From positions 1 to 63,472 of the IMG/VR virus record IMGVR_UViG_3300045825_000308: a stretch of DNA of 63,472 bases. The stretch is one strand, 5' to 3'. How positions within the stretch are numbered: position 1 is the stretch's first letter; every line of letters begins with the position of its first letter. The position numbers and the translations under genes are program-made. The notes under the pieces were generated by a model, which did not search any database, was not told the DNA's origin, and saw only the letters and a program-made list of their open reading frames with translations. Shown here piece by piece: positions 2,910 through 55,838 of this stretch. The stretch comes from a virus.

Positions 2910-3512
2910 ATGCCAGCATCTAACGGATTTATCCGATCTAAAATTAAAGACTCAGTAAAATTTGCTCAGACTCTTGTGAAAATCTCAGGGATTAAATCGC
3001 AAAAGCCAAACGCTTTTAATGTTGATTATAACGGTAATCGCTTTCATGGCGAACTTATGACCGCTTATAACTTAATATCTGATCCAACTAAAATTACTTT
3101 TAGTTACGGTCCAACAGTAAGAGCTGCAAAAACGATTCAAAATTTAACTTATTCTGCAGTGACTACTGGAATTGGTGGAAACTTAATCTCTATTGCTTAT
3201 ACTACAGGAGCAGTTGCAGGAGCTGAAGTTGTAAGTGTTATCGGAAATGTTATTTCAGTTCAAATTGAAAGTGGAGTATCTACTGCTGCTCAAATTAAGA
3301 CAGCAATTGAATTAGTACCAGCAGCTGTTGCATTAGTAACAATTGCAGTAACTGGTTTAGGAACAACTGCTCAAGTCGCAGCGGTTGCAGCAAACCTTAT
3401 TAGCGGACTTTCTCCTTTAAATTATGAACTTCTTCTTGCTAATATTCGAATTGTTCAAAGAATTAGAAGTAGAAAGTATGTTTTTAAAGCAAATATTTTA
3501 TCAATTGTCTAA
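2910..3512 (+). CDS. Virion protein of unknown role with inserted beta module
   Basis: The 200-residue product consists of about 73 unique N-terminal residues, the shared beta module (residues 74-167) and a short basic tail (RIVQRIRSRKYVFKA). AAGGAAG lies upstream of ATG. Without the module only about 100 residues remain, and I do not recognise them. It lies just before the tail tube gene, so a tail role is likely. The module copy is closest in wording to the one in the tail tube gene. Confidence 0.6.
   Translation: MPASNGFIRSKIKDSVKFAQTLVKISGIKSQKPNAFNVDYNGNRFHGELMTAYNLISDPTKITFSYGPTVRAAKTIQNLTYSAVTTGIGGNLISIAYTTGAVAGAEVVSVIGNVISVQIESGVSTAAQIKTAIELVPAAVALVTIAVTGLGTTAQVAAVAANLISGLSPLNYELLLANIRIVQRIRSRKYVFKANILSIV
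3129..3410 (+). repeat. Beta-rich module, copy 2
   Basis: About 94 residues running from KTIQNLTYSA through ISVQIESGVSTAAQIKTAIE to ISGL. It is the cleanest single copy of the module and was used here to define its A half (up to SIAYTTGA) and B half (from AGAEVV onward). Confidence 0.8.
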
Positions 3513-3545: not shown

Positions 3546-5114
3546 ATGTCAAGAGAATTAAAACGTAGAAGTCATGAGTTTTTAGGAGTAGATCAGAAGG
3601 CGTGGTTAGGTGCTGAAGTCGGTGGTTTCGGCGATCTAGCTGTTACTGGATTGGTTCCAGTTGATGCTGGTGCAGTAGATTTTATTGCATGCGATATCAA
3701 ATTTGATATTCCTAGAGAAGATTCACCAAGCCGTTCTGGTCGATCAGTAGTTGCAAGACTATCTGGTAAGAAAACAGTTGAAGTAAAAGTTGAAGCTCAT
3801 ATTATACCGGGAACACCAGATAATTTAGGAAACCCAACTCTTCCTCCAATGCACCCACTTATCCTTTCGGCTTTTGGTGATGTAGATTTAACAGATCCAA
3901 CGAAAATCCTTTATAAGCTTTCTCGATTTAATGGAAACTCTTCAAGAATATTGGAAGAAGCTACGCATTATTCTAGATTAGCTGTAGGCGTTGTTGCTGA
4001 TAAACTTTCTTTCTCTCTTCCAGGAGACGGTAAAGCACAAATGTCAATGGAAGGTTTTGCACAAGATGCTTATATGGCTGGCGAAACTAATTTGGTTCAA
4101 GCAAATACAGGTGTCGCAGTTGCAGCTTCTAAAGTTATCCAAGATTTAACTTTTACTGCTGACACTGTTGGTATTAATGGAAATCTAATTCAAGTTGAAT
4201 ATTTAGTGGGCGGTGTTGCTGGAGCAGAAGTTGTTACAACAACAGGAAGTAAAATTTCTGTTCAGATTGCAACGGGAGTTTCTACAGCTGCTCAAATTAA
4301 AACAGCCATTGATGCAAACGTTGCTGCTGCATTATTAGTGAATATTGTTGTTTCAGGTGTTGGTTCTAACACTCAAGTAGCCGCTGCAGTATCTAACTTA
4401 TCTGGCGGTCTTGGATTAAATGATATTAAAGTAACTGTTGGTCACGGCTTTAGAATGGAAGTAGAAGCCTATATTGATATCATTTTAGGAACTGACGGAA
4501 ATACCGTTGTAGTCTCTCAAAGAAAAGTTGTTCAAACTTATTCAGGTGTAAATGCTGATATCGTAACTGTTGATGGTGCAGCTCTTCCAGCTACAACTAT
4601 TGGTGATTATGTTATCGGACATGCTCCAGCAAACTATAGTCCTATCGCGTCAGATCAGGCTCTGCTTGGATTGCGCGGGACGTTTACAGTAGCTGGTTTT
4701 GCAATTAGTGATGCAGAATTAATCTCTGCAGAAATTAACTTATCAAACAACTACACTAAAAAAGATTTCCTTTATGGTACAGACAAAATAAAAGGTTTTC
4801 TACCAGATAAGCGAAGAGAAGTGTCTGTTAAAATAGAGGTTCTTTTAAACAAAGAAACCCTAAGTTTCTATATGAGAAACAAACAATTCGTAGCTGAAGA
4901 TTTGACAATCACTTTAGAGCCACAAAGAATCCCAGGACCAGCTTTCACAAGCTCAGTTGGTCGGACCTGGACATTCCATATGCCAAAGGTAGAATTTTCA
5001 ATTCCCCCCATCGAAAATGGAAATGAAAGCTACGTGAGTTTGAGTTTGGAAGGAAAGTGTTTGGCAACTAGTGCTAACTCTTTAGATGATGAATTTACTC
5101 TTCAGATTTCTTAA
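3546..5114 (+). CDS. Major tail tube protein with inserted beta module
   Basis: The 522-residue product has the features of a siphovirus tail tube protein: an N-terminal region with PREDSPSRSGRSVVARLSGK, followed by strand-rich sequence (KTVEVKVEAHIIPG) and a C-terminal beta domain (NGNESYVSLSLEGKC). Tail tube proteins stack as hexameric rings around the tape measure. Residues 196-289 are the shared beta module, probably exposed on the tube surface. AAGGAAG precedes the ATG. A clear rho-independent terminator follows the stop codon, consistent with a highly expressed structural gene at the end of a transcript. Confidence 0.65.
   Translation: MSRELKRRSHEFLGVDQKAWLGAEVGGFGDLAVTGLVPVDAGAVDFIACDIKFDIPREDSPSRSGRSVVARLSGKKTVEVKVEAHIIPGTPDNLGNPTLPPMHPLILSAFGDVDLTDPTKILYKLSRFNGNSSRILEEATHYSRLAVGVVADKLSFSLPGDGKAQMSMEGFAQDAYMAGETNLVQANTGVAVAASKVIQDLTFTADTVGINGNLIQVEYLVGGVAGAEVVTTTGSKISVQIATGVSTAAQIKTAIDANVAAALLVNIVVSGVGSNTQVAAAVSNLSGGLGLNDIKVTVGHGFRMEVEAYIDIILGTDGNTVVVSQRKVVQTYSGVNADIVTVDGAALPATTIGDYVIGHAPANYSPIASDQALLGLRGTFTVAGFAISDAELISAEINLSNNYTKKDFLYGTDKIKGFLPDKRREVSVKIEVLLNKETLSFYMRNKQFVAEDLTITLEPQRIPGPAFTSSVGRTWTFHMPKVEFSIPPIENGNESYVSLSLEGKCLATSANSLDDEFTLQIS
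4131..4412 (+). repeat. Beta-rich module, copy 3 (within tail tube protein)
   Basis: About 94 residues from KVIQDLTFTA through ISVQIATGVSTAAQIKTAID to LSGGL. If this is the tube protein, the module would be displayed in hundreds of copies along the tail. Confidence 0.8.
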
Positions 5115-10438: not shown

Positions 10439-12859
10439 ATGAGTCAGGCACTTTTTTTAAATCCTTTTGTTCTTACACCGGCTGCATTGACTGGTGGGTC
10501 TGTCGGCAATGGTACTCTGACAATAAACAAACTAACGCATTTTACAATCAATCAACAATATACGGCTGTTTGTACTTCAACAAGTCCTTTTACTGTTTTT
10601 AATGTGGTTGGTCAATTTGACGGAGCAGTCGGTGTTGCAGTTGTAGGAACGCAATTCAGTGATATTGATTTAAAAGTTTTCTTAACTATGCAACAAGGAC
10701 CAACACTTTTTGCCATTGGCGATACATTTAATTTTGAAGTGGCTCAAGGGACAGATGTAACGCAGCAAAATTTAGATGCTTATGATGAACTTCCTCAAAA
10801 GAATTTTGGTGTCGGACAAACTGGGTTAAATAAAGGCGATCATAACTTAAGATTCAACTCTGCTCCAACATCAGCTAGCAAAACTATTGGCAATCTTCAT
10901 TATGTTTCAACTATAGCTGGACCATTAGGTAATGGAATATCTATAGAATATGTTGCTGGATCCTATCTGGCAGCTGCAAACAGAACTATTCAATCAATTC
11001 TATATACTGCGAATGCTTCTGGCTCAGCTGGAAACAATATTCAAATTCAATACGAAGAATATACTCCATCAGTTAAAGCAATAGCAACAATTCAAAACAT
11101 TAGTTATAGTGCTGACTTGGGTGGCACTAATGGAAATCTAATAAGTATTGCCTATACTTCTGGTGGAACAGCGGGAAGTGAAGTGGCTACGGTAGTTGGC
11201 AATGCGATCAGTGTTCAAATTCAATCAGGAGTTTCTACCGCTAATCAAATCATGATTGCCATTGGTTTACACGCACCGGCTGCAGCTTTAATTGATTATA
11301 TTCCGACAGGTACTGGTTTAGAAACTCAAACAACGCAATCAGCTATATTCTTAGTTGGTGGCGTGAATGCTATCGGTGATGCGGGACATGAAGTCATAAC
11401 TGTTATAGCAAACTTAATCAAAGTAAAATTTCAGTCAGGTGTTTCTACTGCTCAACAAATTTATGATAAATTAATGGCTAGTGTTCCGGCCTTGTCGTTG
11501 ATCTCTCCAACTATTACTGGTGTGCCAGCAAGTGTCCAAACAGCTCCAATCGGACCTTTAAATCTTCAGAATGGAACAGATGTTTTAGGTGATCCAGGGA
11601 ATGAAATAGTAACTGTTCTAGCAAATGCTATTAAAATTACTTTTATTAATGGAGCCTCTACAGCAACTCAAATACGAGCTAAAATATTAGCTACACCAGC
11701 AGCTGTGGCTTTGATTACTGTTGCACTAACTGGAACAGGATCTGAATTACAAGCTTCACCAGTAGCCACAACTTATTTAAGTGGCGGCAGAAACACTGGG
11801 ACATTTGCTTTTAACGAAACAGAGTTAACAGCTCCTGGCACTTTCTATGAAGGGAACGCATCAGTTCTTTTAAAAGATATTGTTGTTCAAGGAAACGATT
11901 TTACTTTTGGTGAAACTGTTAAGCAGGGCAAAGTTACTCTTAATGACGATGTTGTTCTTAATGCACCTGGTCCTTTGATTGATAATGCACAAAAAACTAT
12001 TAATAATCTTATTCAAAATGGAAAATGTTTCTTAGTTTCTGCGTTAGACGCTAAGACAGAATGGAGTAAACCAGCTGGAACTCTTCTTTTAAATGGTGAT
12101 ATTGTCTTAGTATTTGCTGAAACAAATATTAAAAATACTCTCTTAATGTCTGCTGGTCCATTTACATTAGCAGATGGCGAACATATTTACTTTGTTGCAG
12201 ATCGTTATAGCAATATTAATGTTACTCCTGTGATATCCACAACAGTTCCAAATTCTCCAAATAGTGAAAATATTTTCCGATTAGTTTCTAGAGTTGGAAC
12301 AACTCTTTATTGGTGGGATAACACTGCCCAAAGAGAAGGTAAGAAAATCAGAATTGGAGAGGGCGGAAGTTCTGGTGCTTGGCAGGAAAAATTAGGCGTA
12401 GGAAATGGTGCTAATTTAAATTTCCCTATCTTAAGTGGCTTCTTTCCAATAGCTCAAGAATCTATATTAGTTTTTTCTAATACAACACACTTTGTTACAA
12501 CTGAGTGGACTTACAATGTTATTCAAAATCAAATTGAATTTGTCACGGCTCCAGCAATTGGCGTAGAAGTCTATGTTTATTTCTTAACAGATGGAGACAC
12601 TATTGTTGTTCCATCACCGTCTGGTGTTCAACAAGTTCTTTATCATACTTTAACAAGTTTAGAAGTGACCAACAAATATTTAACTTTGTCGGTAGCTCCA
12701 GCGGTTCCTGCTAAGGTTTTAGTAGACTACGTTGGAGGAACATCTCAAGTTTATGGAACAGACTTTTCGATAACTGGTGCTATTTTTAGTTGGCCAGGAT
12801 TAGGATTAGAAGTATTAGCAGCTGCAGGAGATATTATCAGGATCGTGTATCAAGCATAA
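10439..12859 (+). CDS. Tail tip / fibre protein with nested beta modules
   Basis: The 806-residue product is built of beta-rich parts. Residues 147-452 hold three first halves of the shared module in a row, followed by three second halves in a row, as if copies had been inserted inside one another. The C-terminal part (about residues 640-806) has a GxGANLNFPI / VYVYFLTDGD segment that resembles the small protein encoded at 13838-14086. It lies between the distal tail gene and the fibre genes, so an adhesin or tip role is likely. The ribosome binding site is weak (GAG before ATG). Confidence 0.55.
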   Translation: MSQALFLNPFVLTPAALTGGSVGNGTLTINKLTHFTINQQYTAVCTSTSPFTVFNVVGQFDGAVGVAVVGTQFSDIDLKVFLTMQQGPTLFAIGDTFNFEVAQGTDVTQQNLDAYDELPQKNFGVGQTGLNKGDHNLRFNSAPTSASKTIGNLHYVSTIAGPLGNGISIEYVAGSYLAAANRTIQSILYTANASGSAGNNIQIQYEEYTPSVKAIATIQNISYSADLGGTNGNLISIAYTSGGTAGSEVATVVGNAISVQIQSGVSTANQIMIAIGLHAPAAALIDYIPTGTGLETQTTQSAIFLVGGVNAIGDAGHEVITVIANLIKVKFQSGVSTAQQIYDKLMASVPALSLISPTITGVPASVQTAPIGPLNLQNGTDVLGDPGNEIVTVLANAIKITFINGASTATQIRAKILATPAAVALITVALTGTGSELQASPVATTYLSGGRNTGTFAFNETELTAPGTFYEGNASVLLKDIVVQGNDFTFGETVKQGKVTLNDDVVLNAPGPLIDNAQKTINNLIQNGKCFLVSALDAKTEWSKPAGTLLLNGDIVLVFAETNIKNTLLMSAGPFTLADGEHIYFVADRYSNINVTPVISTTVPNSPNSENIFRLVSRVGTTLYWWDNTAQREGKKIRIGEGGSSGAWQEKLGVGNGANLNFPILSGFFPIAQESILVFSNTTHFVTTEWTYNVIQNQIEFVTAPAIGVEVYVYFLTDGDTIVVPSPSGVQQVLYHTLTSLEVTNKYLTLSVAPAVPAKVLVDYVGGTSQVYGTDFSITGAIFSWPGLGLEVLAAAGDIIRIVYQA
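10877..11794 (+). repeat. Nested array of beta-rich modules (A-A-A-B-B-B)
   Basis: Three A halves start at KTIGNLHY, RTIQSILY and ATIQNISY. Three B halves start at AGSEVATVVGN, AGHEVITVIAN and PGNEIVTVLAN, each with a GVST- or GAST-type QI motif. Elsewhere in the window each module is a single A followed by a single B. Confidence 0.75.
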
Positions 12860-18600: not shown

Positions 18601-19275
18601 ATGTATAAAATATTAAAAACTTGTACAAAGTGTAAAGACATTAAGACTATTGATATGTTTTATAAAGACAGAAAAAAAATAGATGGATTATGTTCCCACT
18701 GTAAAATGTGCAAACAAATAGCTAATAAAAAATGGATAGATAATAATCCAGAAAAAATGAAGCAGTCTACTAATGCATGGATAGAACGTAATAAAAGCAG
18801 ATTTTTACAAAAATCTAGAGATTATTATTATAACCATAAAGAAGTTGCATTAGCTAAATCAAAAGAATATGATAAATTAAATAGAGCGACAAAGAGAATT
18901 TATAGTTTGAATTATTATAAAAATAATCCAGACAAAATGAAAAATTATCATAAAAAATCGTATCAGCGAAATAAAGAAAAAATTATAAAGCGTAGCAACC
19001 TAAGACATGTTCTAAAAAGAAAAAGTAGTATCATTTCGCAAAAATTAAATATGATTGGTGAAATTACTTATATATATACATTAGCTAAGTTTTTATCTAA
19101 GATATTAACGATAAGAGTTTCTATTGACCACATAATCCCCTTAAAAAACAAATTTATTTGCGGGTTAGATGTGCCATGGAATATGCAGTTATTAGAATTA
19201 AGAGACAATATAAGCAAGAATAATAAATTTGATGGAACTTATAATAATAGTGGATGGTGCAATCATGTTATATAA
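18601..19275 (+). CDS. Free-standing HNH homing endonuclease
   Basis: The 224-residue protein has an N-terminal zinc-binding Cys set (CTKCKD, CSHCKMCK), a long lysine-rich helical middle likely to bind DNA, and a C-terminal HNH core (VSIDHIIPLKN, then WNMQLLELRDNISKNNK). Such enzymes cut intron-less or gene-less alleles and spread by repair. It is squeezed between the fibre gene and the next gene and overlaps that gene by 11 bases, as expected of an inserted mobile gene. No clear ribosome binding site precedes it. It is Lys- and Asn-rich, unlike the Thr/Ala-rich fibres around it. Confidence 0.75.
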   Translation: MYKILKTCTKCKDIKTIDMFYKDRKKIDGLCSHCKMCKQIANKKWIDNNPEKMKQSTNAWIERNKSRFLQKSRDYYYNHKEVALAKSKEYDKLNRATKRIYSLNYYKNNPDKMKNYHKKSYQRNKEKIIKRSNLRHVLKRKSSIISQKLNMIGEITYIYTLAKFLSKILTIRVSIDHIIPLKNKFICGLDVPWNMQLLELRDNISKNNKFDGTYNNSGWCNHVI

Positions 19276-25511: not shown

Positions 25512-25796
25512 ATGTTTAACTTTTGCATTGTATTGAATACTGCTCCATTTTATGTGTTGGCTCAAAATGAAAAAGATTTAGAAGAAATTCTAAAAGTTTA
25601 TGAAGGTAAAATTTCTATTGTGGTCAAAGCAAAAGATTTAGAAGTAATGGAATTTAAAATGCAAATGAGTTTGTTTTCTAAAAATACTCTATTAATTCCG
25701 ACAGTGGTCGAAGAAACTCAAGATGCTTTAGCTAAAATGATTAATGCTTCTGAACAAGATGAATTAATTTATGAATTAACTAATGATATTAACTGA
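25512..25796 (+). CDS. Hypothetical protein at the end of the tail operon
   Basis: The 94-residue product has no motif I recognise. It has a hydrophobic start (MFNFCIVLNTAPFYVLA) and an acidic end. AAGGACAAATT precedes ATG. Its last 21 bases overlap the end of the leftward helicase gene, so the two transcripts converge here with no clear hairpin terminator between them. Confidence 0.6.
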   Translation: MFNFCIVLNTAPFYVLAQNEKDLEEILKVYEGKISIVVKAKDLEVMEFKMQMSLFSKNTLLIPTVVEETQDALAKMINASEQDELIYELTNDIN

Positions 25797-26657
25797 TTTG
25801 CCGTATACTTCTTTAATGATGCTCATTCTAGCTTTAGAGTGGGCAATTAAATTCTTCTGACCATTGTCTATAAAGTCAAAATAATATCCTACTTGTTTGT
25901 TTTTAAAATTTCTCACAACTCTTCCACACTTTTGCATTAATTCAGATTCAGCTTTACCACCACCACAATTAATAATAGCTCCAGCTGCTTTAGTATCAAC
26001 GCCTTCACCTAAAACATCTGTTCCGATTAAACAAGGAATTTCTAAATTATTAAACTTTTTTACCATTTGCATATTATAAGATGCAGATTCATCTTGACCA
26101 TTTAAAAAGACGGCATCCTTTCCAAGGGCGCTTTGCAATTGCCTTCCATGGCCTATGTGTTCCACTAATATAATTGTCGGAACATTATTACGAATCATTT
26201 TTTTAGCTGTTTCAATAACAATTGCATTTCTAGCTTGATTGTTATCAATAAATAAAGGCACATCGCTTTTATAATTCTTCTTAGAAAGAATCTTTTTATT
26301 TGGCATATCAAAGAAAAAACTAACTAACGGTTTAATATATCCTAGATTGATAGCCTCTATAGTGGTAACAGAATATAAGGTATCACTTAAAACAGATTCT
26401 AAATAGATATTAGAATTAGGATCGTTTTTAAAATTCGTCGCTGTTAATCCATACCGATAATAGATTTCCGATAATCGATCGGCAAAATCAATTCTAACGC
26501 CTTCAGCACCAGAATTAGACGTTAAAATACCTTCAGCAACATAGTTATGATTATCTTCAACTGTTATATCATAGACCCACTCATCTGCTGAATCAACCTC
26601 TTCAATACTAATAATTGTTCCTTTGAGTAGTTCTCTGGTATCCTGACAATTTTCCAT
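25776..26657 (-). CDS. Helicase C-terminal part with intein C fragment
   Basis: The 293-residue ORF begins with about 48 residues of intein C fragment, ending in HNYVAEGILTSN, followed by the C-extein from Ser-Gly-Ala-Glu. The C-extein (about 245 residues) has helicase motifs: GLTAT (motif III), then GTDVLGEGVDTKAAGA and CGRVVRNF (motifs V and VI). AGGAAG lies 6 bases before the ATG, so it can be translated on its own from inside the endonuclease coding region, overlapping the upstream ORF by 94 bases in the -1 frame. Its fragment layout resembles short IntC pieces of natural split inteins. Trans-splicing to the upstream product would restore the helicase. Confidence 0.75.
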   Translation of the reverse strand: MENCQDTRELLKGTIISIEEVDSADEWVYDITVEDNHNYVAEGILTSNSGAEGVRIDFADRLSEIYYRYGLTATNFKNDPNSNIYLESVLSDTLYSVTTIEAINLGYIKPLVSFFFDMPNKKILSKKNYKSDVPLFIDNNQARNAIVIETAKKMIRNNVPTIILVEHIGHGRQLQSALGKDAVFLNGQDESASYNMQMVKKFNNLEIPCLIGTDVLGEGVDTKAAGAIINCGGGKAESELMQKCGRVVRNFKNKQVGYYFDFIDNGQKNLIAHSKARMSIIKEVYGKSVNIIS

Positions 26658-27361
26658 CCAATGCTTCCTAGTCTTATTTCTTTGCGTAAATCTTGTGCTT
26701 CTCTTCCTTTATGCGATGTTCCATCAACTTCAATGCCTATTTTTAAATCAGCATTAGCTAAATCTATTTTATAATTTCGTGGAAATTCACCATCTTTTAA
26801 ACCAATAGCAACTTCTGCTTCAAAGTTTTTAAAAATATCTAGCAAATAGATTTGAGTTGGCGTTAATGCACCACCATTCCCATATGTTCCACGACCAAAA
26901 GGATTATAAGAACCATCAGCAATTTTAGATTTTATTTTTAAAGATTGTTTTGATCGTACTTCGATAGAACGGTTTTTATTTGCCAGCGCAATTATTTCTC
27001 TATGTTTTTTTGATTTGCAGTTTTCTTGCCTAGTTTTAGGGGCAAGTCCCATAGTAAGTTTATCTCCAATTTTCATTTGTTCAATTCTAATCTTCCCATT
27101 ATCAGTTAAAAACTTATGATTTTTTGTTACTATAAATTCTTTTATATTTCCATCTTCATCTTGAACCCTTACTTTTAACATTTTGGGGGGAGCAGGATAT
27201 CTCATAGCATTTATAACTAATTTAGATTCCCATGCTTTACCGTTCCACGATATTACTTTTGGCTTACTGCCGTTATGAAATAACTTATAGATCTCTTCAA
27301 TAGTGCGAGTCTTATATGATTTTGATTTCGATCCAGAAATTTTAGTAAGTGGTGTAAAACA
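26514..27361 (-). mobile_element. Intein interrupting the helicase at motif II (EDxHD endonuclease type)
   Basis: The intein runs from the Cys codon after DEFHH to the Asn before the Ser of the C-extein. Its length, 848 bases, is not divisible by three because the N part (265 residues, with endonuclease) and the C part (48 residues) are in different frames. Splicing would join DEFHH to SGAEG and give a helicase of about 453 residues, a normal size. The endonuclease has the D, E, H and D residues of the Vsr-like EDxHD homing family. Confidence 0.75.
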
Positions 27362-27985
27362 ATGATGGAACTCATCAAATATCAATTGAGAAAACTGCTT
27401 AAAGTAATTCGGATCCTTCGATGATAGAGCATGAAAATTCGTAACTATGATTGGCTTATCATGATGAACTTTTAATAATCCAACATCATCTGTTCCGAAA
27501 GATTCTGTTAAATACTCATAAGTCTGTTGTCGAAGATTTCCTGATGGTGTAATGATTAGCGTTGGTCTTTGAGTTCTAATAAGAGCTTCTTTAATAACTC
27601 TGCTTTTTCCAATACCAGTTGGCATTTCTAAAACACCGCTTGTGTTAGTTGCAATAGCATGAGCTCCAAGAATTTGTTCAGGATATAAAGGTGGTTCAAT
27701 TAATCTGTCAATTAAATTAATAGATTTGTGTTTGGGGATGATTCTGTTATCGGCAATATTAACCGGAAGATATCGTTCATCAAAATATTTGCTTACCCTT
27801 TTTACTAAGCCTGTTGGAAAATATCCATCTTCATCTATCAATAGAGTTGTTGAGGCATATCTATTTTTAGTTCTGATCCACGTTGACATGTTAAAATAAC
27901 TTACAGTCATTCGTAAGTTTTTAAGTAAGGATTTATCTAATCCAACAACACGAGACATAGAATTATTTAAAATTATCGTTATCAT
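26564..27985 (-). CDS. UvsW-like helicase N-terminal part, intein N fragment and Vsr-like endonuclease
   Basis: The 473-residue ORF has three parts. Residues 1-208 are the helicase N-extein with Walker A MPTGIGKS and motif II DEFHH. The intein N fragment starts at Cys209 (CFTPLTKISG) directly after DEFHH. A Vsr/DUF559-like endonuclease follows, with conserved YKIDLA, IGIEVDGTSH and a following QDLRKE, ending near GWKIVRIPE. It is known that helicases of this type (T4 UvsW) unwind recombination intermediates. The ORF stops before the intein C fragment, which lies in the overlapping ORF. The promoter region is 27986-28648. No strong ribosome binding site is seen at either candidate start (27985 or 27958). 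Confidence 0.75.
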   Translation of the reverse strand: MITIILNNSMSRVVGLDKSLLKNLRMTVSYFNMSTWIRTKNRYASTTLLIDEDGYFPTGLVKRVSKYFDERYLPVNIADNRIIPKHKSINLIDRLIEPPLYPEQILGAHAIATNTSGVLEMPTGIGKSRVIKEALIRTQRPTLIITPSGNLRQQTYEYLTESFGTDDVGLLKVHHDKPIIVTNFHALSSKDPNYFKQFSQLIFDEFHHCFTPLTKISGSKSKSYKTRTIEEIYKLFHNGSKPKVISWNGKAWESKLVINAMRYPAPPKMLKVRVQDEDGNIKEFIVTKNHKFLTDNGKIRIEQMKIGDKLTMGLAPKTRQENCKSKKHREIIALANKNRSIEVRSKQSLKIKSKIADGSYNPFGRGTYGNGGALTPTQIYLLDIFKNFEAEVAIGLKDGEFPRNYKIDLANADLKIGIEVDGTSHKGREAQDLRKEIRLGSIGWKIVRIPENYSKEQLLVLKRLIQQMSGSMI

Positions 27986-28648
27986 TATACATAATACTTT
28001 CTGTTAATAGAAAAAAAACGGGCGCAACATTGAATAGGTATTCTACGAAGTTGGAAAAGAATGATCTTTTTTATTTTTGCATATCGTTTTTCTGTTATAC
28101 GAAGTATCAGAAGACTCTAGGACCGGTGGTTGGACATTGGTTTTGTCCCCCGCCCTCCAGAGAGGGGGCAAAAAGGCAAAGGAGACTCCTTAAGGTATCT
28201 TAATAAGAGTTTTAAGAAAGACAAGAGAGAGAAAATAAAAATCTAGAGAAAAAATAAGAGAAAAAAATAAAGTCAAGAGAAAAAATATAAATAATTAAAA
28301 ATAAAGATAATAGTAAAAATATATTAAATAAAGATTTACAAAATGAGACTTCTTGATAAAATATCGAAATAAGATTAATATTAAGATTTATATATAAATA
28401 ATTTATAAAAATTATTGTAAAAATTTCAAGGTCTCGCTTCACTTGGGTTCTCGCTCAGTGAAATTTTCCATAATTATAAAAAATTAAATTTAAAAAATAT
28501 TTTAAAATTTTAAAAAACTTCAATTTACGCTATTTGTCATATTACGCAGTACTTCCATCAACACCTCTAGACGCACATCATCAAAAAATACCTTTAAAAT
28601 TATAAGAGTATTATCCATCACAGTATCTATAAAAGTAAAAGGTTATTA
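27986..28648. other. Divergent non-coding region, candidate origin or structured RNA
   Basis: No convincing gene is present between the leftward helicase and the rightward replicative helicase genes. A relatively GC-rich stretch at 28108-28200 holds three hairpins: GGACA/TGTCC (28132-28148), CCCTC/GAGGG (28153-28166) and AAGGAG/CTCCTT (28179-28191). It is followed by about 120 bases of purine-rich sequence with very few C residues (28205-28325), then AT-rich sequence and the inverted repeat at 28420-28467. Promoters for both flanking genes must lie here, but none is clear. Origin function is inferred from layout. Confidence 0.4.
28420..28467. repeat. Nested inverted repeat in the divergent region
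   Basis: AAAATTTCA (28420-28428) pairs with TGAAATTTT (28459-28467), and inside it CACT (28440-28443) pairs with AGTG (28457-28460). The centre also has two TCTCGCT direct repeats. Confidence 0.55.
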
Positions 28649-34030: not shown

Positions 34031-37000
34031 ATGATCACATACGCTAATCTAAATACTAAATCACATTATTCAGCAGGTCTAGCAGTTGGCACAACAACTG
34101 AAATTATAAAAAAGGCTATGGAGAAAAAACTTCATGGCCTTGCTTTAACAGATCGCAACACAGCGTCTGGCTTAATTGATTTTTATAATAAAGCAAAAGA
34201 ATTAAAATTCAAAGCATCTCTTGGTATTGAGATTTTTTATTATGATAATGCAAACAAACTTCAAAAAATCGTTCTATTAGCTATTAACCAGGAAGGTTAT
34301 TTTAATCTATGTCATTTAGTAACTAATTCATGGAATAATGTTCATTTATTTAATATGCCATGTGTTTCTTTATACGATTTAAATGAATATTCGCAATATT
34401 TATATTGTTTATCGAGTTCATTTGCACAAAGAAAAGATTTAAAGTCTATCTATAAAGACAAACTAATTTTTCAAATATTCTTAGACTATCAAAATAATGA
34501 AAATAATTTTAATATCTTAAAATCCTCAGAAAAATATATTATTTCATGTGATGCTTTTATTCCTGATTGGGATTTTAAAGAGCTTCAAGATGTAATGTTA
34601 AGCAATAGTAAATCTGCTACTGATGCAGATAAAGCTATTAGCGCTAAGCCAATCTTATCAGCTGTTGAAATAATGCAATATTGGAAAACCAATATGAATT
34701 ATATGACAATAGAACAATTGGCACAAGCTTTTCAATTATCTGTTTCAATTCTAGATGAATGCTCAAAGATTGAATTAAAGTTTAGAGATCAGGTTGTAAA
34801 TTATCCTCACCTTCTTCATCCATTAAATCATGACGGTTGTTCAAAAGAAGAGTTGGTTTATAGAATAGCTAAAGATTATGGAAGATTTCCTATTGATAAT
34901 TCAATATATAAAGACAGATTTGAATATGAGATGGATGCTATCACCAATAACGGAAGAGTAAATCTAATAGATTATTTCTTAGTGCTTGAAGATTTGTGCA
35001 GATGGTGTAGAGAGAATGGTATTACTGTTGGTCCAGGCAGGGGTTCTGGAGCTGGAGCTCTTGTTAACTATTGTCTGAAGATTACTCACTTGGATCCTAT
35101 TGTTTATAATCTTTTATTTGAAAGATTCATATCTAAAGGAAGGATAATCAATGGAAATATGCCCGATGTCGACCTAGATTTTTCCGAGCAAGAACCAGTT
35201 AGAGAATATTTAATAGAAAAATATGGATCTGATCGAGTTTATAGAATAGGAACGTTTCAAACATTAAAAACATTAGGCTCTATTAAAGATATTTGTAAAT
35301 CAATGCAAGATAAATATCCAGAATTAGATTTTGTTACTGTTAATAACGTTACAAAAACTTTTGGAGATAAAGACATAGAAGAATCAGAAGCTGAATTTTT
35401 TGAAAGAGTGTTAGAAGAAAATGAAGTTGCGCAAACCTTCTTCCAAAAATATCCAGATGTATTAAGCAAGGTTGAAAGGCTTGTTGGATATAATAGACAA
35501 GCGGGTATTCATCCCTGCTTTAATGGTAATATGAAAATATTAACAGATATCGGATATAAAACTTTTTATGAATTAGAAAATAAAAGCGCTATGATTTTAA
35601 CGCCATCCGGTTGGAGAAATGCTGTATTTTTTAAAAATGGTATAAAACAAACGTATAAACATATTATCGCAAGATCACATTTATCAACGAGAGGATACAT
35701 AGAAATTATATGTACAAAAGATCATATATTTAAATCAGACAATGATAGTGATTCAGAATTATATAAAAAGAAGATCTTGAGTAATCATAATTGTAATGAG
35801 TTAAGTTTAAATCATTTTTTATTAGGTTGGATATGGAATGATGGTTATTTTAATAAAAATGCAAATAGATTTATTGCATGCATCACCCCAGAGAAGGATA
35901 AGGAATTTTTTAAAATTTTTCCTGAGGATAATTTTCAATTAAAGCAAAAAAAATATGCATATACTTTTAAACATGAATTTAATCAAATTTTTGATAACCT
36001 TGGATATGATTATAATAAAACCACAACTAAGCAGTTTCCAATACAATGGAACACTTGGACAATTATAGAAAAATTTTCATGGCTTAAGGGAATGTTTTCA
36101 GCAAATGGATTTATCGTAAGAAAAAAATTTGGCATTAAATTAACATCTAGAAAATTAATTATTGATATGATTACGGCATTGAATGAATTAGGCATTACGA
36201 CAACAACAAATTTTAATGATCAGCCATCAATCGAGTGGAAATCAAAGGCTGCAAGTTATTTTTATTTAACACAGCATGGTAATAACACTTTTATTAAAGC
36301 TATAGGCTTTGTACAAGATTATAAGAATAATAATATTTTGAAAGATAACAGATATATTGCGCAAAAAATAATTAAACACAACATAGAGCCTGTTTTTGAT
36401 TTTACCGTTATTGATGGAGATCCATATGGCTTGGTTGAGGGATTTTGGGCACACAATTGTGGACTCGCATTGTGTCAAGATAATGTAGAAGACTTTGCTC
36501 CACTGAGATCATATAAGGGCACAAAAGTTTTAGATATTAATGCTGGAGCATGTGAACAATCGGGAATTTTAAAATATGATATCTTAGGATTAAGAACTTT
36601 AAAATATATTCAAGCCACATGTGATCTCGTTGGCATTAAAGATATTTACTCTATACCGTTGGATGATAGACTAACCCACAATAAGTTTGCTGAGGGAGAT
36701 ACTAATGGAGTGTTTCAGTTTAATTCTGATGTAGCTATTGGAATCTTAACAATGATACCAAAGAATAAAATGTCTTTGGATGTTGAATCATTAACAACAT
36801 CATGTGGACGTCCAGGACCAATGCGAAATGGACAGCATATTGAATTTGCAAAAAGAGTGAGTGGTGATAGATTAGCAACAGCTCCGCACCCAGCACTTGA
36901 AGAAGAATTAAAATCAACATTCGGAATTATGATTTATCAAGAAAATGTTATGAAGACATCACAAATACTTGGTGGATTTTCTTTAGCCGAAGCAGATGAT

Positions 37001-38020
37001 ATTAGACGCGCAATGGGTAAAAAGAAAGCATCTGTGCTTGCTCCATATAAAAGTAGATTCATTGACAATTGTCAACTTAAATTTCCTGAAACTAAAGATA
37101 AATATTTAGATGAAAAAAATCCAAGCTCAACTATATCTAAAGCAGAATACATTTGGAACTTAATGGCTACATTTTCCGGGTATGGTTTTTGCAAGGCCCA
37201 CAGCGTTGCATATACTCTTATTGGTTATCAATGTCAATATTTAAAGACTCATCATCATCTTGAATGGTGGACAGCTTGCTTAATGCATGCTAAGTCAGAT
37301 AAGATTCAATCTTATTATCAAGATGCTATGCAGTATTGTATCGATCCAGATATTAATAAATCACAAGAAAACTATAAAATTATTGATGGCAAAATTCAAA
37401 TGCCACTAACCTCTATTAAGGGATTAGGGCCAAAAGCTTCACAAGACATTTATTACTTGAGACCATTCACTTCAATGCAAGATTGTTTAACTAGAGTCAA
37501 CAAAAGAGCTGTTAATAAAAAAGTTGCTCTCCAATTGATTTATGCAGGTTGTTTTGACTCACTTCATCCAGAAGGAAAACAACATCTAGTTAATGAATAC
37601 TTTAGATTTCGTGGTGAAAAAGCACCAGAAGAATTAAAAACCCTAACAAGAAATCAATTAACAGACTTTAGAATTAAAGCTTTGTCTTATTTGCAGAGAG
37701 ATTTATATGAAATCTTTGCAGATATATTTTCAGAACCATTAACGCAATATGAAAATATAGTTATGACCAATGAGCCAATCCATATACTTGGAAAAGTAGA
37801 TTCACTAAAGAAAAAGAAAACAAAGAATGGTAATGATTTTGGCGACTTAATGATTTCAAATAATGGCGAAGTATTAAAGATAAGAATGTGGGAAGACGAA
37901 TTGAAATGTTACAAAGAGAACTTAAAAGAAAAGAATGAACTAAGACTAAAATGTAAAGTGTCAGAGTACAATAACCAAGTACAGCTTACATTAATTAGTT
38001 GTAAAATATTGGGAGTTTAA
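34031..38020 (+). CDS. dnaE: DNA polymerase III alpha (C-family), interrupted by an intein
   Basis: The 1329-residue precursor has a PHP-like N terminus whose His motif is degraded (LNTKSHYSAG, not the usual H-x-H), the palm motif GPGRGSGAGAL, the catalytic MPDVDLDF (Asp near 379 and 381) and KYDILGLRTL with the third Asp. The C-terminal part has the helix-hairpin-helix (TSIKGLGPKAS) and an OB-fold. Residues 496-809 are an intein; removal gives 1015 residues. The intein sits in the conserved AGIHP/CGLAL segment. A separate DEDDy exonuclease in this window could supply proofreading. TATAAT lies 5 bases before the start codon, and the upstream ribosome site is weak. Confidence 0.9.
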   Translation: MITYANLNTKSHYSAGLAVGTTTEIIKKAMEKKLHGLALTDRNTASGLIDFYNKAKELKFKASLGIEIFYYDNANKLQKIVLLAINQEGYFNLCHLVTNSWNNVHLFNMPCVSLYDLNEYSQYLYCLSSSFAQRKDLKSIYKDKLIFQIFLDYQNNENNFNILKSSEKYIISCDAFIPDWDFKELQDVMLSNSKSATDADKAISAKPILSAVEIMQYWKTNMNYMTIEQLAQAFQLSVSILDECSKIELKFRDQVVNYPHLLHPLNHDGCSKEELVYRIAKDYGRFPIDNSIYKDRFEYEMDAITNNGRVNLIDYFLVLEDLCRWCRENGITVGPGRGSGAGALVNYCLKITHLDPIVYNLLFERFISKGRIINGNMPDVDLDFSEQEPVREYLIEKYGSDRVYRIGTFQTLKTLGSIKDICKSMQDKYPELDFVTVNNVTKTFGDKDIEESEAEFFERVLEENEVAQTFFQKYPDVLSKVERLVGYNRQAGIHPCFNGNMKILTDIGYKTFYELENKSAMILTPSGWRNAVFFKNGIKQTYKHIIARSHLSTRGYIEIICTKDHIFKSDNDSDSELYKKKILSNHNCNELSLNHFLLGWIWNDGYFNKNANRFIACITPEKDKEFFKIFPEDNFQLKQKKYAYTFKHEFNQIFDNLGYDYNKTTTKQFPIQWNTWTIIEKFSWLKGMFSANGFIVRKKFGIKLTSRKLIIDMITALNELGITTTTNFNDQPSIEWKSKAASYFYLTQHGNNTFIKAIGFVQDYKNNNILKDNRYIAQKIIKHNIEPVFDFTVIDGDPYGLVEGFWAHNCGLALCQDNVEDFAPLRSYKGTKVLDINAGACEQSGILKYDILGLRTLKYIQATCDLVGIKDIYSIPLDDRLTHNKFAEGDTNGVFQFNSDVAIGILTMIPKNKMSLDVESLTTSCGRPGPMRNGQHIEFAKRVSGDRLATAPHPALEEELKSTFGIMIYQENVMKTSQILGGFSLAEADDIRRAMGKKKASVLAPYKSRFIDNCQLKFPETKDKYLDEKNPSSTISKAEYIWNLMATFSGYGFCKAHSVAYTLIGYQCQYLKTHHHLEWWTACLMHAKSDKIQSYYQDAMQYCIDPDINKSQENYKIIDGKIQMPLTSIKGLGPKASQDIYYLRPFTSMQDCLTRVNKRAVNKKVALQLIYAGCFDSLHPEGKQHLVNEYFRFRGEKAPEELKTLTRNQLTDFRIKALSYLQRDLYEIFADIFSEPLTQYENIVMTNEPIHILGKVDSLKKKKTKNGNDFGDLMISNNGEVLKIRMWEDELKCYKENLKEKNELRLKCKVSEYNNQVQLTLISCKILGV
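35516..36457 (+). mobile_element. Intein in DnaE with LAGLIDADG endonuclease
   Basis: This encodes 314 residues from Cys (CFNGNMKILTDIG) to the final WAHN, followed by Cys of the C-extein. The endonuclease has two LAGLIDADG-like motifs, FLLGWIWNDGYF and WLKGMFSANGFI. The splice-site residues (first Cys, terminal His-Asn, +1 Cys) are intact, so splicing is expected. It is continuous in frame, unlike the helicase intein. Confidence 0.85.
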
Positions 38021-55770: not shown

Positions 55771-55838
55771 ATACTTATAGCTCAGTTGGGAGAGTGGTAG
55801 TTTCTATCGGGTCGCAGGTTCGAGTCCTGTTAAGTATT
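55771..55838 (+). ncRNA. tRNA-like element lacking a normal anticodon loop
   Basis: The sequence folds as a cloverleaf: acceptor ATACTTA/TAAGTAT (7 bp), D arm GCTC/GAGT with GG in its loop, T arm GCAGG/CCTGT with loop TTCGAGT. The anticodon position has a 5-bp stem GGTAG/CTATC but only a three-base loop TTT, so no anticodon can be formed. The total is about 68 bases, 5 or more shorter than a standard tRNA. It may be a decayed tRNA or a tRNA mimic. No CCA is encoded. Confidence 0.65.

Follow-up and report, generated by a model that had tools for sequence, protein, structure and literature searches.

Fractured phage genes bearing natural split inteins and Vsr-like (EDxHD) endonucleases were reportedly described by Dassa et al. 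in 2009, with the endonuclease free-standing between the two halves. In Bacillus phage G, a UvsW-like helicase is split at motif II between gp221 and gp223, the intein halves being carried on two open reading frames (ORFs). Here, we examine a helicase gene in the virus record IMGVR_UViG_3300045825_000308 (IMG/VR), whose entire sequence of 63,472 nucleotides (nt) is referred to as the window. This locus resembles the fractured split-intein genes in that a gene of phage DNA metabolism occupies two ORFs with an intein half on each at the junction, and a Vsr-like endonuclease lies within the break. It differs from them in that the endonuclease is not free-standing but fused in frame to the N-terminal intein domain (IntN), while its tail is encoded by the same bases as the start of the C-terminal intein domain (IntC). 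Phage G shares the split UvsW-like helicase, but there the site is DE/C (the slash marks the splice junction), no endonuclease is present, gp222 lies between the halves and the ORFs do not overlap. Fractured split-intein genes are already known; the fusion of endonuclease to IntN with a dual-coded tail appears to be a new variation on them.

Both ORFs are on the minus strand. The N ORF (27985-26564, 473 aa) encodes the N-terminal half of the helicase, IntN and the endonuclease; the C ORF (26657-25776, 293 aa) encodes IntC and the C-terminal half of the helicase. The C ORF is read in the -1 frame relative to the N ORF, and the two have 94 nt in common (26657-26564). The N-extein (27362..27985, 208 aa) matches profiles for the N-terminal half of a UvsW-like SF2 helicase and ends in FDEFHH, placing the break in motif II. 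IntN (27038..27361) runs from Cys209 to approximately residue 316, contains the block B motif TKNH and matches TIGR01445 (intein_Nterm, 4e-7); it scored 34.1 bits in an intein-profile search of the window's own genome. The endonuclease, Vsr/EDxHD-like and matching DUF559, follows in frame (26567..27037), with conserved residues E391, D408, H425 and D432. On the second ORF, IntC (26514..26657; 48 aa, MENCQDTRELLKGTIISIEEVDSADEWVYDITVEDNHNYVAEGILTSN) matches TIGR01443 (intein_Cterm, 2e-10) and PF14890 (Intein_splicing, 3e-6), both TIGR scores being above cut-off; it closes with ILTSN before Ser+1, from which the C-extein (25776..26513, 245 aa plus the stop codon) continues. A Shine-Dalgarno sequence, AGGAAG (26664..26669, minus strand), stands 6 nt upstream of the ATG of the C ORF. 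By sequence, the hallmarks of a class 1 intein are present: Cys209, TKNH in block B (TxxH), the C-terminal Asn (SN) and Ser+1. Pfam returned ResIII (3e-11), DUF559 (3e-6) and MTES_1575 (3e-5) on the N ORF, that is, a ResIII/DEAD helicase half followed by an endonuclease, and Helicase_C (5e-10) after the intein domain on the C ORF, such that both RecA-like domains of the helicase are represented. The helicase profile matches the T4 UvsW structure 2oca over 88-428 (2.5e-20), and the C-extein matches phrog_16 (7e-31). An earlier note on this DNA had described a UvsW-like helicase broken in motif II, the coordinates, frame and overlap of its ORFs, the ribosome-binding site, the 48-residue IntC with intact Cys, Asn and Ser at the junctions, and a Vsr-like endonuclease; each of these is borne out by the ORFs and profile searches. 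The combined length of the exteins, 208+245 = 453 aa, also agrees with its figure for the spliced product.

The same arrangement recurs in two divergent phages. In an IMG/VR contig recovered with the N ORF as query (L022), the two ORFs have a like start (MESFQDT) and overlap by exactly 94 nt, and in a second found in a later search (L027) ORFs of 470 and 287 aa overlap by 91 nt. From end to end, and thus with the endonuclease tail counted, the N ORFs of L022 and L027 are 43% and 40% identical to that of the window. All three loci begin the C ORF with ATG, preceded at the matching place by a Shine-Dalgarno-like sequence (aggaaaattagg in L022, aaggaggctggg in L027), and they retain intact splice residues and endonuclease catalytic residues; together they form one clade (tree support 1.0). 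A further phage with the same neighbouring genes (L023) possesses the orthologous helicase unbroken, at 453 aa; an AF2 model of this intact protein was of low confidence (pLDDT 57). The joined exteins of the window align with it without a gap across HH/S and are equal in length, and because they are collinear the splice site is fixed by comparison. The helicase parts of the window resemble this intein-free allele (57% identity for the N part) more than they do the intein-bearing L022 (36%); presence of the element is therefore patchy, as expected if it is mobile or sometimes lost. A single-sequence search of viral contigs with the C ORF gave no match. A query built from the endonuclease pair (A5) likewise found nothing in the genome collection, where a broader alignment (A9) did find relatives. 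Phrog_16259 matches the N ORF as far as residue 308, and nearly the whole C ORF is covered by phrog_9690; given these matches and the related split in phage G, such split helicases have been sequenced before. Judged from these comparisons, it is well supported that the arrangement is real and maintained.

Within the overlap (26564..26657), the N frame encodes a strand of the endonuclease together with its last helix, and the -1 frame encodes the start of IntC. The endonuclease profile extends to N residue 466 (nt 26590), and on the C ORF the intein profile begins at C residue 8 (nt 26636); thus, homology to known families exists in two frames at once over ~47 nt. Between the window and L022, 80/94 bases of the overlap are identical. 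Where codons specify an unchanged residue, the third base is kept in 40/44 cases within the overlap vs 172/317 elsewhere; counting both frames gives a Fisher p=1e-6 that is indicative only, since the frames share bases; with the C frame taken by itself, p=4e-5. An AlphaFold 2 (AF2) model of IntN plus endonuclease has predicted local distance difference test (pLDDT) values of about 82-94 in the endonuclease core and, for successive blocks of the part that the overlap encodes, ~92, 90, 88 and 61 toward the C-terminus. Both frames are evidently used, because the family profiles overlap, the third bases are constrained, and the strand and last helix are modelled. On sequence comparison, then, the overlap is of old standing, conserved and coding in both frames.

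Across the endonuclease core, stop codons close the IntC frame (11 of them in the window, 13 in L022, 4 in L027), so that it cannot be read uninterruptedly from upstream. No -1 slippery heptamer of the form X_XXY_YYZ occurs in the usable last 121-145 nt of any of the three loci. Own initiation followed by trans-splicing is the simplest reading, since the IntC frame is closed, the heptamer absent, and the Shine-Dalgarno sequence and ATG conserved. We consider it highly probable that this is a fractured gene whose parts are separately initiated and then trans-spliced into a 453-aa UvsW-like helicase. A single transcript would carry both overlapping ORFs; translation of the first would yield the helicase N-half with IntN and the EDxHD-like endonuclease, and that of the second, starting at its own ribosome-binding site within the endonuclease code, IntC with the helicase C-half. 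The two proteins would pair by way of their intein domains, IntN with IntC, and undergo trans-splicing at HH/S, freeing the IntN-endonuclease piece together with IntC. The endonuclease would presumably cut intein-free alleles and so spread the element. In its order of IntN, endonuclease and IntC, the locus resembles an ordinary large intein severed immediately past the endonuclease domain.

Three observations weigh against this interpretation: the penultimate intein residue is Ser in the window, L022 and L027, the usual (though not universal) His being absent; no Shine-Dalgarno sequence is apparent before the N ORF; and a Foldseek search with the IntN-endonuclease model was weak, the best hit having E 0.012 and I-Bth0305I (3r3p) ranking second (E 0.016, prob 0.99). 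A TATTAT-like A+T-rich stretch lies directly 5' of the helicase N start in the window (27986-27998), L022 (3979-3991) and L023 (3988-4000), without a clear Shine-Dalgarno sequence; it may be a promoter from which a leaderless mRNA is made. The only internal ATG of the N ORF that follows a Shine-Dalgarno-like sequence (codon 312, GGAG) is conserved in neither L022 nor L027, and a free-standing endonuclease made from an internal start was rejected. An Rfam scan of the window for group I or II introns gave no match except one tRNA.

The alternative that survives best, albeit as an unlikely one, is programmed -1 ribosomal frameshifting in the overlap, which would produce one cis-splicing precursor with the short N product as a by-product. 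The shift required is indeed -1, and an AAAG tetramer stands in frame at the same place in all three loci; however, AAAG is dictated there by both reading frames anyway, and a shift at this point would cost the endonuclease its conserved last helix. The C ORF has a conserved Shine-Dalgarno sequence and ATG of its own, and frameshifting would have to do without a heptamer in the usable stretch. TTTAAAA at 26747 was rejected as a slip site because it lies upstream of stops in the IntC frame and is unusable. Homing elements often decay, and the fracture might instead have inactivated the helicase and left both halves as relics; that three divergent phages retain both halves, their splice residues and the catalytic residues intact, with the overlap constrained in both frames, makes decay very improbable. 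Least credible is the base error that the earlier note had named as its alternative: in theory, one sequencing or assembly indel within ~145 nt would suffice to connect the frames of an ordinary contiguous intein, but such an error could not yield ~47 nt of two-frame family homology and is for practical purposes excluded, as it also is by the same layout and overlap in two independent divergent contigs, the third-base constraint and the intein-free 453-aa relative.

A wider family of loci places this gene in context. In Corynebacterium phage phi673 (gp43) and Vibrio phage 159E43-1b, the same endonuclease is encoded out of frame within an intein of a helicase gene, the intein itself being open in the helicase frame. 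Altogether, 40 phage records matched; they are annotated at this place only as helicase, coil-containing or hypothetical protein and not as endonuclease, and the frames were checked in these two. When profiles for IntN, endonuclease and IntC were applied to fetched loci, this nested pattern of an out-of-frame Vsr-like endonuclease within an in-frame intein was found at 87 loci (among L009, L010, L012-L021 and L028-L112), and in 87/87 the endonuclease frame is +1 relative to IntN and IntC alike. Removal of near-duplicates left 69 loci, 67 of them with one uninterrupted host frame. Over the endonuclease core the intein frame is stop-free in 67/69; the third frame has 10.7 stops on average and is open in none of the loci, so selection keeps the host frame open. 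The searches were pattern-based and seeded with the window's own clade, so these counts do not represent frequencies in nature. Most nested loci insert at DE/C in Walker B, in SF2 helicases, SNF2 proteins and DnaX-like clamp loaders; the window's site, DEFHH/S, is three residues later. The window has in common with the 67 nested inteins the endonuclease clade, the overlap of its tail with IntC and the +1 phase. In those inteins, unlike the window, a single frame stays open from IntN to IntC, and splicing would occur in cis. One of the loci (L088, 2053-5565) is a single SF2 helicase gene with two inteins, the first apparently containing an HNH-type endonuclease domain.

The two exceptions among the 69 are themselves fractured. 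At L049 (203-2455) there are three separate overlapping ORFs, in which a free-standing endonuclease overlaps the N ORF by ~105 nt and the C ORF by 121 nt; unlike the window, this locus belongs to the type with a free-standing endonuclease. L090 (3247-5184) appears to have the same arrangement up to the contig end, with an endonuclease-N ORF overlap of ~105 nt, and from its layout the endonuclease there is very probably free-standing too. In a further locus (L048) the endonuclease is fully in frame. One endonuclease clade therefore occurs in four layouts: out of frame within an uninterrupted intein, as a separate ORF between the split halves, joined to IntN, or wholly in frame.

We assign the endonuclease to the EDxHD/Vsr-like homing enzymes, a family described in PMC3943268, by its conserved core and related fold; its cleavage and homing activities are putative. 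The clade profile matches the catalytic core of I-Bth0305I (3r3p, an EDxHD-type structure, 5.5e-6) and the DUF559-like structure 3hrl (6e-11). In a 13-sequence alignment of relatives, D408, H425 and D432 are invariant and E391 is frequent. I-Bth0305I is an intron-encoded free protein, whereas the window's endonuclease is fused to an intein half. In ShiLan, a homing-type endonuclease has been described that is out of frame with the open host gene around it and not in an intein (PMC11855218). That insertion hides out of frame in a like manner, but it belongs to the HNH family and no splicing domains were found in it (PMC11855218), unlike the present locus. Our search found no paper on Vsr-like endonucleases out of frame inside inteins; preprints and Dassa et al. 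2009 lay outside that search.

The window, L022 and L027 retain the +1 phase of the endonuclease to IntC, but their IntN is in the endonuclease frame. This suggests that the layouts are related through changes at the IntN/endonuclease junction, the +1 phase being common to them. The tree branch placing the trio has a support of 0.13 and does not resolve whether the fractured form arose from the nested one. It is conceivable, at slightly less than even odds, that the window represents a fractured derivative of a large unnamed intein class whose endonuclease is nested +1 out of frame and homes for the most part to the codons for the Walker B 'DE' in unrelated P-loop NTPases. A change of frame where IntN meets the endonuclease would then, in a single step, join these two and free IntC. 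If true, overlapping genes could in this way give rise directly to a split intein. The four layouts make the steps of gene fracture, which bear on the origin of split inteins, testable by comparison and simple constructs. Furthermore, the nested loci suggest that, in dozens of phage records, a second gene may be hidden in DNA labelled only 'helicase' or hypothetical, and the locus offers candidate new natural split inteins for protein ligation.

Several other features were noted on the plus strand of the window. A DNA polymerase III alpha gene (34031-38020) contains an apparent in-frame intein of roughly 300 aa, from about HPC to HNCGLAL, between Pfam domains; TIGR01445 did not score it. A small Cys-rich ORF (18601-19275) resembles by eye a free-standing phage endonuclease and had no Pfam match at 0.001. 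Rfam predicts a tRNA at 55771-55838 (42.5 bits), where ARAGORN reported none. Four structural-type ORFs (814-1869, 2910-3512, 3546-5114 and 10439-12859) contain a module of the GNxISVQIxSGVSTAxQIKTAI type, present in several copies in the last.
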